49,434 bases of DNA from NCBI GenBank assembly GCA_016342355.1, contig JAEINP010000038.1, positions 1-49,434 of the forward strand, read 5' to 3'. A model generated the notes under the pieces. The model searched no databases. It worked only from the letters and a program-made list of their open reading frames with translations, and was not told the DNA's origin. Numbering within the stretch: the stretch's first letter is position 1; each line of letters begins with the position of its first letter. This DNA is from Desulfatibacillum sp. Lineage in GTDB: Bacteria; Desulfobacterota; Desulfobacteria; Desulfobacterales; Desulfatibacillaceae. Below are positions 30,850-35,185 of this stretch, piece after piece. A program made the position numbers and the translations under genes.

Positions 30850-31920
30850 TTATTCGCAGGGGTTCCTGTTTGCAAAGGCCCCGGGCTTGGGCATGCCGAG
30901 ATCTTCCATCTGTGCGGAGCTTGCCGGCCTGTCCCCGGAACTTTCGATGGCGCCAATGTCTCCTGCATCCACACCAGCAATGGCACGCTGCCCCTCTCTG
31001 ACATCCAGTTCTTCCTGGTTTAATTTAGCCCAATCATCCTCTGAAGCCCCGGCTTCCAGGGCGGATGCTTCCGCCTCGATCATGGCTTTCAAGCGCGTCT
31101 TCGCTTGGCGCAAATTTTCCCGGGCATCTGCCAGAATCTGCTTGTCAGGCGTCCACAATTCCAAAAAAGCAGCGCAATAACGGGTTTCCTCAGCGGCGGC
31201 CTTATTAGCCCGAATCCAGGCCAGTTTGCGTGTCTGCTCCGCCGCATCTTCTTCCAGGGTGGCGTCATTGGCTCTTTGGGCAACCAGTGCAGCTATATTT
31301 GCGACCAGGGCTCCTTTTATAAACTCGCTGTTCGTTGCCTCCCTGGGTGGCACATTGTCCGCAACCCCGGCCTTCCATGGCCCAATGGTAAAACTCCGGT
31401 CCCCCTCGTCGAAGGAAAGGAAGGCCTCCCCTTTCTGGTTCACGGAAACCAGGGCGGCAATCCGCGTGGTTCCGGAGTCTTCCCGCAAACCGGACACCAT
31501 GGGCGGCGTGGCGATTTCCGAACGCATTAGCCGGTAATCCGTTTCGATCCACATCTTGCCCATGTATAGGGTAAAACGGCGGCGGGTAAGGTCCGATTGA
31601 ATTATGGGCAACCCTCTTCGGGTCCATTGCTTTAATTCAAGAGCGGAATAGCGGCAAAGCATTAACCGGGAGCCGTCCTTGAATGCCACTTCCACGGTTC
31701 CATCGGTGGTCACAATTTTGTCCCCGGAAAAAACGGGAAGACCGGCAACCATTTCCCCGCCCCAGATTCCCTGGCTTCTTAACAACACCTCGCCGGAAAA
31801 TTCAGTCACTGTGCCTATAGGGCCATCCTCCGCCAGACACATGCCGGAAAGGAGCAGGAAAACAATAAGAACCGTTACTATGGGAAGTTTTTTACCGCGA
31901 ATGATGCAACACTTGCTCAT
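30850..31920 (-). CDS. FecR-domain exported protein
   Basis: A 356-residue protein with an N-terminal signal sequence or anchor (about residues 12-30, LPIVTVLIVFLLLSGMCLA). A FecR domain (about 35-130) with FSGDKIVTTDGTVEVAFKDGSRLML follows; in this family it is a periplasmic beta-sandwich. The second half is helical and rich in Ala, Arg and Glu. Unlike classical FecR it has no cytoplasmic anti-sigma N terminus and no adjacent TonB receptor. It is convergent with the sigma-DUF3795 unit, so it is not an obvious anti-sigma partner of that factor. Confidence 0.75.
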   Translation of the reverse strand: MSKCCIIRGKKLPIVTVLIVFLLLSGMCLAEDGPIGTVTEFSGEVLLRSQGIWGGEMVAGLPVFSGDKIVTTDGTVEVAFKDGSRLMLCRYSALELKQWTRRGLPIIQSDLTRRRFTLYMGKMWIETDYRLMRSEIATPPMVSGLREDSGTTRIAALVSVNQKGEAFLSFDEGDRSFTIGPWKAGVADNVPPREATNSEFIKGALVANIAALVAQRANDATLEEDAAEQTRKLAWIRANKAAAEETRYCAAFLELWTPDKQILADARENLRQAKTRLKAMIEAEASALEAGASEDDWAKLNQEELDVREGQRAIAGVDAGDIGAIESSGDRPASSAQMEDLGMPKPGAFANRNPCE

Positions 31921-32066: not shown

Positions 32067-32203
32067 TTTTCTAAAGTTCCACGCATGGTCAGTTTTTCCT
32101 TTTCAAGGTGGCATTTCCGACCCCTTGCATGTCCAGGCATACGCTTTGCAGGCAGGAAAAACAGGTATTGTACAGGGATCTTAGCCAGACTCGCCGGGGG
32201 GGC

Positions 32204-33451
32204 ATGAGCGGCAAAAAATCAGATAACACAGATTTATCTTGTGTCAGTGCCAAGTCAAATCCCGAACCCTTGGTGATAGACCCGGCCAGGGTGGAGGAGC
32301 TTGCCACACGGCTTGCGGAGTCTGAAAAAAAACTCCTGCGGGAAAGCATGCTCCTTCAGGCCACCCGGGAGGCCTGGGAAATGAGCGAGGCTCATTACCA
32401 GGGTCTCATGGAGAGTATGGAGGACATTGTCTTTTCCGCGGATTCCACGGGCCGGATTGTCCATATCAATCCGGCTGTGGAAACAATCTTGGGGTATCTG
32501 CCGAAACAAATCATAGGGGACTACCTGTTTGATTATGTGGCACCGGCTGACAAGGACAAGGCAATCAATCAGTTCGCCAAGGTATTTGTGCAATCTCCCC
32601 AAAGAGGCGAATACCGGGCCATGGGAGAATCCGGCGCTGCACTATGGTTTCGAGTCACGGCCTTTCCGTTACGCACCGTAACAGGAATAGGAGGCGTGCG
32701 GTGCGTGGCCTCAGAAATAAGCACGGAAAAGATGTTGCAGGAGGAGTTGCATTGGTCGCAACAGCAAGCCATAACCGGGCAAATGGCCGTCTTGTTGGCC
32801 CGGGAAATATGCGATTCCTGGCAGAAAACCCAAGCCATGCTGGATTCCTTCAATAACATGGCACAAGAGAATCCTGAAATGGCGCCATTTTTTACCCGGT
32901 TATCGGATAGTTTTGCCAGCTTTCCCGAAGCGTTGCGCACATTGGCCAGTTTGGATCCCGGCCTGGACGAAAGAGTCAGGGCGGTCAACCTGAACCAAAG
33001 CATCTTAAAAGTTTTCCGTCTGCTCAGGCAAAGATTTGAACGATATGGAGTCCGGACCACTCTCAGCCTTTCCACCAGGGTGCCTTTTACCATGGCTTGG
33101 CCCAAACGCATGGAGCACGCCTTTTTTGTTTTATTACACCACGCAAGCAGAGCTATACAGGAGAAAAGCCTCCGGTCCGGGCATCCCGGAGAAATCAATG
33201 TGACATCCCGGAGAAAAAAAGATAGAATTATTATTGAATTCTCAGACAATGGCCCGGGGCTATCCCGGGAAGATTGCCAGCGTATCTTTGATTTCAACTA
33301 TTGCCTTGGAAGTTCGACCGCCGGGGGAGTGGGGCTCCATATGTCCCGGTCGATCATTGAGGACCACGGAGGCTCCATTCGGGCCAATGCATCGCCCGAA
33401 GGGGGCGCGCTCTTCACCATAGATCTGCCAGTGCGCCATCCCGGGGCTTGA
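32204..33451 (+). CDS. PAS-domain histidine-kinase-like protein, degenerate
   Basis: A 415-residue protein. A PAS domain lies at about residues 63-178 (QGLMESMEDIVFSADSTG), a dimerisation region at about 180-240, and a HATPase domain at about 290-412 with G1 SDNGPGL and G2 GVGLHMSRSIIEDHGG. The H-box that normally reads LAHEI reads LAREI, so the phospho-acceptor His is Arg200 (codon 32801-32803). The N-box Asn is replaced by His312-His313 (33137-33142). No membrane helix is seen. The start at 32204 is favoured over 32108 because GGGGGG precedes it. The response regulator gene follows after 29 bases. It may act without kinase activity, or be regulatory. Confidence 0.85.
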   Translation: MSGKKSDNTDLSCVSAKSNPEPLVIDPARVEELATRLAESEKKLLRESMLLQATREAWEMSEAHYQGLMESMEDIVFSADSTGRIVHINPAVETILGYLPKQIIGDYLFDYVAPADKDKAINQFAKVFVQSPQRGEYRAMGESGAALWFRVTAFPLRTVTGIGGVRCVASEISTEKMLQEELHWSQQQAITGQMAVLLAREICDSWQKTQAMLDSFNNMAQENPEMAPFFTRLSDSFASFPEALRTLASLDPGLDERVRAVNLNQSILKVFRLLRQRFERYGVRTTLSLSTRVPFTMAWPKRMEHAFFVLLHHASRAIQEKSLRSGHPGEINVTSRRKKDRIIIEFSDNGPGLSREDCQRIFDFNYCLGSSTAGGVGLHMSRSIIEDHGGSIRANASPEGGALFTIDLPVRHPGA

Positions 33452-33480: not shown

Positions 33481-34041
33481 ATGCCCGACCATTCGATTTT
33501 ATTTGTGGATGATGACTATTACTCCAGGGAGGCCACGGCCAGGGATCTGAAATCCAGGGGGTACCAGGTCACGACAGCACCTGACGGGGAAACCGCCTTG
33601 GAATTATTGGCGAAAAACTCCTTTAACCTTGTTATCACCGACCTGGTGATGGACCAGGTGGACGGAATCGAGGTGCTAAAAACCGCCAAAAACATGCATC
33701 CCGACATCATGGTCATTATTCTGACGGGGTACGGAGACATGTCTTCCGCCATTGAAGCGCTCAGGCTTTCGGCCGACGACTACCTACTCAAGCCCTGCGA
33801 TCCGGAAGAAACCCATTTCAGGGTCATAAAATGTTTGAAAAAGCAGGAGTTCAAAAAAAGAATCCAGGCTTATGAAGAAATCCTGCCAATCTGTTGCGTG
33901 TGCAAAAAAATCCGGGACGACGAAGGCAAGGAACCCGGCACCGGACAATGGATGGACCTGGAGGATTACCTGGAGCAACGCGGCAAGTTCGACGTTAACA
34001 CAACCCTTTGCCCCGCCTGCGGATACGGGGAAACCGGATAA
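33481..34041 (+). CDS. Response regulator with a C-terminal zinc-ribbon-like domain
   Basis: A 186-residue protein. The receiver domain (1-120) is complete: acidic pocket Asp10-Asp12, phospho-acceptor Asp54 in VITDLVMDQ, Thr82 in ILTGYG and Lys104 in LLKPCD. The rest (about 130-186) has ICCVCKKI and CPACG spaced by some 50 residues, the pattern found after PAS or receiver domains in many Desulfobacterota and probably binding zinc. There is no DNA-binding or enzyme output domain. The ATG at 33481 follows AGGAC; TTG at 33448 would overlap the kinase stop. Confidence 0.88.
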   Translation: MPDHSILFVDDDYYSREATARDLKSRGYQVTTAPDGETALELLAKNSFNLVITDLVMDQVDGIEVLKTAKNMHPDIMVIILTGYGDMSSAIEALRLSADDYLLKPCDPEETHFRVIKCLKKQEFKKRIQAYEEILPICCVCKKIRDDEGKEPGTGQWMDLEDYLEQRGKFDVNTTLCPACGYGETG

Positions 34042-34132: not shown

Positions 34133-35185
34133 ATGAGAACGCCCTTGATCGTTCTGCTGTTTCTTGCGGTTGTCCTGTCCTTTGCAGCCCCCCCATCCAT
34201 GGCTGAAACCCAATATGGCGAGTGGGAATTGGTCATGGATAAAAATGGCATCAAAGCCTATTCCCGAAAGGTGGAGGGATCAGGAATCTTTGAATTCCGG
34301 GCAGTTGCCGTGGTGGACGCCCCCATAGAGGTCGTGGGAGAAACCCTGCGGGATGTTCCAGCATGCGCCGAGTGGCTGCCCTACTGCAACGAATCCCGTC
34401 TGCTGGAAATGAAGGACCGCAACCACTTTTCCACTTACGTTTCCTTAGACCTGCCCTGGCCCCTCAAGGACCGGGATCTGACATTGGGAACAGAGACTGA
34501 ATACGACCTGGTCCATGGCCGGGCAGTCACTGACCTGTACAATACGGATATTGCTTCCTGCCCCATTACAGATTCACATATCCGCATGCCCTGCCTGAAA
34601 GGCCAGTATGTTTTTGAGTTCATCACCAGAGAAAGAACCGGCATCATCCAAACTTACAGGGCGGATCTGGCTGGCAAGGTGCCGGACTGGATGGCCAATA
34701 TCGCCACAAAGTATAATATGTACGATACATTCATGAACCTAAAAGAAATGTTCAAAAAGGAAAAGTATATTGAACTGGCAAAAAAATCGCCTGATTTGGA
34801 AATATGCCTGGATATTCTTGCCAACAAAAACCGGGTCAAGGAAATCCTGGTGGCAAGACTGAAAGAATTCATCAATGATGAAGGCTTTATTGCAATGATC
34901 CTTGCGGACCGGGACATCGACCGGATACTACTATCCGACAACGGAAAAACCAGCGAAACCATTCTCTACGGTTGGGGATCGGACGAAAGCAAGAAATCGG
35001 CCATTAAAGGCATATTGCGAGCCTATCTTTCGGCACGGGGTCAGGACGAAAAAACCATCAAAACCGTCCTCAAGGACGAAACCCTGGTGGAAACCATCCT
35101 GTACGGTCCCAAGCCCTCCTGCCCTTCGTCCGGCCGGATTCTCGAAACCTACCTCAAAGAGGCCAGTGTCATGGCCAGCAAGTGA
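34133..35185 (+). CDS. Exported START-domain protein with a helical C-terminal extension
   Basis: A 350-residue protein with a cleavable signal peptide (cleavage near SMAE). Residues about 25-210 form a START-like lipid-binding fold (GEWELVMDKNGIKAYSRKVEGS, then LPWPLKDRDL and the trailing C-terminal helix). Residues 215-350 are an extra helical region of no family I know, in which ETILYG occurs twice (positions near 278 and 322) before GWG and GPK. The start has AAGGAG seven bases upstream. Ninety bases separate it from the response regulator, so co-transcription is possible. Lipid or sterol-like ligand binding is inferred from the fold. Confidence 0.75.
   Translation: MRTPLIVLLFLAVVLSFAAPPSMAETQYGEWELVMDKNGIKAYSRKVEGSGIFEFRAVAVVDAPIEVVGETLRDVPACAEWLPYCNESRLLEMKDRNHFSTYVSLDLPWPLKDRDLTLGTETEYDLVHGRAVTDLYNTDIASCPITDSHIRMPCLKGQYVFEFITRERTGIIQTYRADLAGKVPDWMANIATKYNMYDTFMNLKEMFKKEKYIELAKKSPDLEICLDILANKNRVKEILVARLKEFINDEGFIAMILADRDIDRILLSDNGKTSETILYGWGSDESKKSAIKGILRAYLSARGQDEKTIKTVLKDETLVETILYGPKPSCPSSGRILETYLKEASVMASK

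Follow-up and report, generated by a model that had tools for sequence, protein, structure and literature searches.

A putative PAS-sensor pseudokinase encoded upstream of an intact four-cysteine response regulator in Desulfatibacillum

The window (the whole 49,434-nucleotide stretch of Desulfatibacillum sp. DNA that was analysed) encodes a PAS-containing histidine kinase homologue, a response regulator and a START-domain protein on the forward strand. Paired identities in the list below are those between the window's genome and the sister species, first for the kinase homologue and then for an intact paralogue; "intact members" are kinases of the same family that serve as the reference set.

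32204..33451, + strand: putative PAS-DHp-HATPase_c sensor pseudokinase; open reading frame of 415 amino acids from ATG, start codon uncertain
32390..32728, + strand: PAS domain, residues about 63-175 (Pfam PAS-type matches, residues 63 to 174)
32729..32989, + strand: DHp (dimerisation/phospho-acceptor) region, residues about 176-262, relaxed (identity 41/87 versus 77/87)
32801..32803, + strand: Arg200 at the phospho-acceptor His site; Arg in the sister species, His in 29/29 intact members
33128..33130, + strand: Val309 at the first N-box Asn site; Val in the sister species, Asn in 29/29 intact members
33137..33142, + strand: His312-His313 in the N-box, with His313 (33140-33142) in the Mg-binding Asn column; same in the sister species, Asn in 29/29 intact members
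33206..33289, + strand: G1 segment, residues 335-362, Asp348-x-Gly350-x-Gly352 kept, nearly frozen (identity 26/28 versus 17/28)
33290..33337, + strand: F-box, ATP lid and G2 (residues 363-378), eroded, with loss of Pro, Phe, Lys-Lys and Gly373 (identity 8/16 versus 16/16)
33481..34041, + strand: response regulator with intact receiver and C-terminal four-Cys tail (Pfam Response_reg 7.2e-27)
33892..34020, + strand: CxxC...CxxC tail (Cys138, Cys141, Cys177, Cys180), putative zinc ribbon; four Cys in 35/35 regulators
34133..35185, + strand: START-domain protein downstream of the regulator (Pfam START 1.6e-10); same order in the sister species

The reading frame of the kinase homologue has an in-frame alternative start, GTG at 32108. 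Its Pfam matches are HATPase_c (2.1e-15) and PAS (4.6e-12), and HisKA does not figure in the match list, which extends to E 1. An AlphaFold2 model built without an alignment had a mean pLDDT of 42. Upstream of the kinase, on the opposite strand, lies a FecR-like protein (30850-31920; Pfam match below the cut-off), which occupies the same place in the sister species and is 65.5% identical there. Within about 1.5 kb of six START homologues in other genomes neither a kinase nor a regulator was seen, and the downstream neighbour thus gives no hint of a wider operon function.

The sequence-only reading described a histidine kinase with Arg for the phospho-acceptor His in the H-box and His-His for the N-box Asn, and proposed that it is a pseudokinase. 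Alignment bears this out: Arg200 falls in the H-box column, and the gap-free N-box alignment pairs the first Asn with Val309 and the Mg-binding one with His313; the sister species has the same Arg and His at these places. H-box Glu201 is retained. The same reading had called both the G1 and G2 regions well kept, which holds for G1, whose DxGxG residues (Asp348, Gly350 and Gly352) are present in the pseudokinases of both species, and only in part for G2, where Gly373 has become Ala in both species, Gly375 is kept in the window and is Glu in the sister, and Gly377 is kept in both. The ATP-lid Lys pair, replaced by Gly369 and Ser370 in the window, is gone in both species. Set against the residues of an active HisKA-type kinase, the phospho-acceptor His, the N-box Asn pair and the ATP lid with G2 are lacking, and the G1 box is present. 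The further suggestion of another His donor finds no support within the DHp: the window protein has a single His there, His183, where the sister species has Val, and the one His in the sister's DHp aligns with window residue 212, a Met.

The sister species was the only other genome of the genus compared, giving a genus sample of two. Both species have the gene order FecR-like (other strand), kinase, regulator and START, and the sister pseudokinase, 59-60% identical to the window kinase, carries the same Arg, Val and His. Of six neighbouring genes compared across the two species, the kinase shows the lowest identity (59.2%), against 65.5-88% for the others (regulator 72.0%, START 76.0%, FecR-like 65.5%, ECF 69.8% and DnaJ 88.3%). 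Because the sister species shares both the gene order and the three replaced residues, a sequencing error is most unlikely, and the window gene would encode a pseudokinase that has been kept. Whether orthologues conserve the Arg had been raised at the outset; the only orthologue available keeps Arg and the N-box His, not His and Asn.

A census of HATPase_c proteins in the window's own genome examined 108 of 117 rows, the other nine being the weak end of the list, and one of the 108 is GyrB, leaving 107. Asn stands in the Mg-binding column in 105 of these, the exceptions being the window kinase (His) and C39:24451-24819 (Arg), and only the window kinase (Arg) and C12:13650-14003 (Glu) have another residue for the phospho-acceptor His. 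H-boxes were found by pattern in 101 of the 108 rows, and the remaining seven were judged by eye: His in three, a broken frame (C98:2079-2447), Arg in the window kinase, Glu in the C12 protein, and GyrB. Two of the 101 pattern matches lay outside the H-box, and direct reading found His in both. Since the census finds few other exceptions, degenerate kinases are rare in this genome, and not unique to the window. In the C12 protein a receiver precedes a degenerate kinase core (GEEIRTPL) in which N-box, G1 and G2 residues are lost too. The C39 protein keeps its H-box His (AHDFGRYL) and has a degenerate ATPase-like (CA) domain, with Ile and Arg in the N-box and two G2 residues changed.

Relatives of the window kinase were sought in 389 genomes of the order, with the best candidates per genome scored. 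Matches at E <=1e-33 occur in 18 of the 389, both genus members counted; seven other genomes of the family gave no kinase match at 1e-30, and no relatives were found in a scan of viral contigs. A scan of genome contigs returned two distant matches, which were left out of the comparisons. By both search and tree, the closest homologues are intact PAS-histidine kinases of the same order with the H-box AHEINSPLQ. The intact set (n=29) combines the nearest matches found with the kinases beside regulators, a non-random sample, after removal of ten rows, namely the pseudokinase pair, two duplicates and six other-type kinases; it includes one paralogue from each genus genome (G000:C51 and G001:C35). 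In the alignment, all 29 keep the phospho-acceptor His, the two N-box Asn and the first Lys of the lid. As these more distant members keep His and Asn, their loss appears genus-specific as far as sampled, that is, in two genomes.

The tree was built from 35 of 39 rows (two duplicates and two other-type kinases from G149 were dropped), with four kinases of another type as outside rows. The two pseudokinases form one clade (100/100) inside a 31-row family of AHEINSPLQ PAS kinases (99/96), at a position within the family that the tree does not settle, and both rows were flagged for unusual letter make-up. Their stem measures 2.67 changes per column and their tips 0.26 and 0.43; for the intact paralogue pair the stem is 0.83 and the tips are 0.21 and 0.26. 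On this tree, the long stem with short tips is suggestive of a burst of change followed by constraint.

The constraint itself was assessed by comparing the window and sister pseudokinases with the intact paralogues that these two genomes carry. Identity in the DHp is 41/87 for the pseudokinases and 77/87 for the paralogues (Fisher p 5e-9), whereas the two pairs are alike in the CA (93/127 versus 89/129; p 0.49) and in the PAS domain (61/113 versus 67/115; p 0.59). Within the CA, the ATP lid has diverged (8/16 versus 16/16; p 0.0024), the N-box stands at 11/18 versus 16/18, and the G1 segment, delimited post hoc, is the more conserved in the pseudokinases (26/28 versus 17/28; p 0.0095). The contrast between DHp and CA has a permutation p of 5e-5, and among 214 circular shifts only the observed register reaches it. 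Among the 62 near-invariant positions from DHp to CA (those kept in at least 90% of the 29 intact members), both pseudokinases retain 25, both have lost 30, and seven are missing from one of them; 19 of the 30 jointly lost have changed to the same residue in both. The pseudokinase pair has a dN of 0.33 and a dS of 1.87, a ratio of 0.17 in which dS is saturated.

A DNA-level cause of the G1 conservation, namely the antisense open reading frame at 32569-33297, was ruled out. Synonymous codons are alike at 16/30 sites in G1, 24/45 in residues 263-334 and 21/59 in the PAS domain, and the long antisense frame is a different frame in the sister species. Since the synonymous codons of G1 are no more alike than those of residues 263-334, its conservation lies at the protein level. 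Constraint is, by these comparisons, shifted from the DHp to the CA, which is unusual. The conservation is that of one pair, because only two pseudokinase sequences were found, and on that species pair the protein is a pseudo-histidine kinase in the usual sense: a homologue that lacks the phospho-acceptor His and is kept by selection.

The neighbouring receiver had been described as intact, and D10, D11, D54, T82 and K104 are indeed all present in the window regulator. D11, D54, T82 and K104 do not vary across 35 aligned regulators (31 loci outside the genus and two pairs inside it); at position 10 one sequence, that of the sister species, has Glu. Regulator matches at E <=1e-50 occur in 42 of the 389 genomes, the genus counted. 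No Pfam family matches the CxxC...CxxC tail, which looks like an uncharacterised zinc-ribbon output module with presumptive metal binding. Both genus genomes contain a second four-Cys regulator (G000:C84:16107-16646 and G001:C47:16550-17089), for which the nearest kinase match is more than 4 kb off on the other strand and no family kinase lies directly beside it.

The genes beside the regulator were counted for those matches that have a locus, 31 outside the genus. An intact family kinase adjoins the regulator in seven of them: upstream on the same strand in five (G134, G100, G115, G149 and G052, with gaps of about 40 nt, or about 235 in G149), and on the opposite strand just downstream in two (G199 and G090). 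The other 24 loci, some cut by contig ends, show no family kinase within about 1.5 kb of the regulator. Given the kinases beside regulators outside the genus, the window pseudokinase occupies the place of an intact kinase elsewhere, and the existence of such intact pairs indicates that the kinase most likely became a pseudokinase in place. The genus regulators are altered at alpha-1 (P13Y and L16R; the other 31 have Pro in 27 and Leu in 28), which can be read as lost or re-tuned DHp docking.

The ancestral state would thus have been an intact AHEINSPLQ PAS-histidine kinase encoded just upstream of the four-Cys regulator. In the genus, the kinase at that place would have lost its His, both N-box Asn and the ATP lid, with the gene being kept. 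The PAS domain would sense, and the signal would be passed by protein contact, with no autophosphorylation. This contact is placed mainly in the constrained ATPase-like domain because the CA is what selection holds, and the adjacent regulator would be the first-choice target. The G1 Asp is kept and the Mg-binding Asn and lid are gone, so that binding of adenine nucleotide by the domain without hydrolysis is possible. The phosphate of the regulator would come from another donor; the intact family paralogue, present in both genomes, is a possible one. Sequestering of the regulator, or a scaffold role, is plausible. We judge the chances of this sensor pseudokinase, with contact mainly through the ATPase-like domain and a regulator phosphorylated by another donor, to be about even.

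A bolder and tentative reading takes the ATPase-like domain as the output module, on the grounds that the DHp has been released and that conservation of the G1 face exceeds that in an active kinase. The protein would read its PAS signal and an adenine nucleotide (e.g., ADP) and clamp the four-Cys regulator, as a NifL-like stoichiometric switch that would have arisen within one genus from an ordinary kinase-regulator pair. Several points weigh against contact centred on the CA. The whole CA of the pseudokinase is no more conserved than that of the paralogue (p 0.49). The ATPase domain of DivL is reported to be unnecessary for its function (PMC9491836), and RocA without its CA is reported to complement when overexpressed (PMC7028121). 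The dispensability of the CA in these two proteins lowers our confidence both in the output-module reading and in the explanation preferred above.

The window protein might instead modulate an intact histidine kinase, such as the paralogue G000:C51, by binding to it, possibly as a DHp heterodimer. Both genomes have an intact paralogue from the same family, and there are two precedents: RocA is reported to interact with CovS and to depend on its activity (PMC7028121, which does not use the term heterodimer), and the ChrS pseudokinase to act through HrrS (PMC9491836). However, the DHp is precisely the relaxed part of the protein, which would be odd for a partner in a conserved helix bundle, and we consider modulation of a kinase unlikely. 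Classical docking is more doubtful still: the protein would bind the (phosphorylated) regulator through its DHp surface and protect or read it, as DivL does with DivK~P, whose life it is reported to prolong without kinase or phosphatase activity (PMC4211667). The intact receiver encoded next door suits such docking, but the relaxed DHp does not, nor does the changed alpha-1 of the regulator, though the joint change could be a re-tuning.

Decay of a gene without function would agree with the long stem branch (2.67), the loss of catalytic motifs and the lowest conservation among the six neighbouring genes; it is made very improbable by a frame that is open in both species, a dN/dS of about 0.17 (dS saturated), a CA as conserved as in the intact paralogue, short tip branches and preserved synteny. 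An unusual active kinase with another residue or metal arrangement, to which the retained G1 Asp and Gly residues and Glu201 might point, is the least credible of all, as the two species share no DHp His and have both lost the N-box Asn pair, the lid Lys pair and one G2 Gly.

Bacterial pseudo-histidine kinases are already known, and that of the window is apparently genus-specific. To our knowledge, few pseudo-histidine kinases have been worked out. In a search of the literature on them, with subscription journals mostly outside its reach, the family of the window protein was not found among the matches listed. The value of the locus lies in its control set, which comprises intact members that adjoin the same regulator, the undamaged paralogue of both genomes and an orthologue with the same losses. 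This set shows what goes once catalysis is lost, with the DHp helices released and the ATPase-like face kept, and from this pattern the contact sites of a pseudokinase can be predicted and put to the test.

By analogy, NifL, DivL and RocA would be the closest to the window protein in action. NifA, the target of NifL, is an activator of the sigma-54 type. NifL of Azotobacter and other diazotrophs has a PAS sensor and a kinase-like C-terminal part and shares an operon with its target, much as the window protein is encoded beside its likely one, and it controls NifA by direct contact, not phosphorylation (PMC8063818). It differs in that NifA is a transcriptional activator (PMC8063818), not a receiver protein, and in having a second PAS domain. 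Membership of the nifL family was rejected for the window protein, whose TIGR02938 match of 51.8 bits is far under the cut-off of 242.45 bits.

DivL of Caulobacter is described as a pseudo-histidine kinase with Tyr550 at the phospho-acceptor site, PAS sensors and a phosphorylatable regulator as partner (PMC4211667), and one of the PDB chains matched by the window CA part is DivL 4q20 (E 1.6e-6). The residue is Tyr in DivL and Arg in the window protein, and DHp docking provides the binding surface of DivL, whereas the window DHp is relaxed; lineage and regulator type differ as well. RocA of group A Streptococcus and the ChrS pseudokinase of Corynebacterium are reported as kinase-dead homologues that act through an active kinase (PMC7028121, PMC9491836). 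RocA differs from the window protein in its membrane spans and in keeping a His (H246), and the ChrS variant arose by frameshift in a laboratory-evolved strain; ChrS/HrrS heterodimers were seen for the native kinases, not for truncated ChrS (PMC9491836). The partner kinase is known for RocA and ChrS and is only a guess for the window protein. Finally, the intact AHEINSPLQ kinases of the order keep the catalytic motifs that the two genus members do not, and in five loci one of them takes the corresponding position upstream of a regulator of this family.
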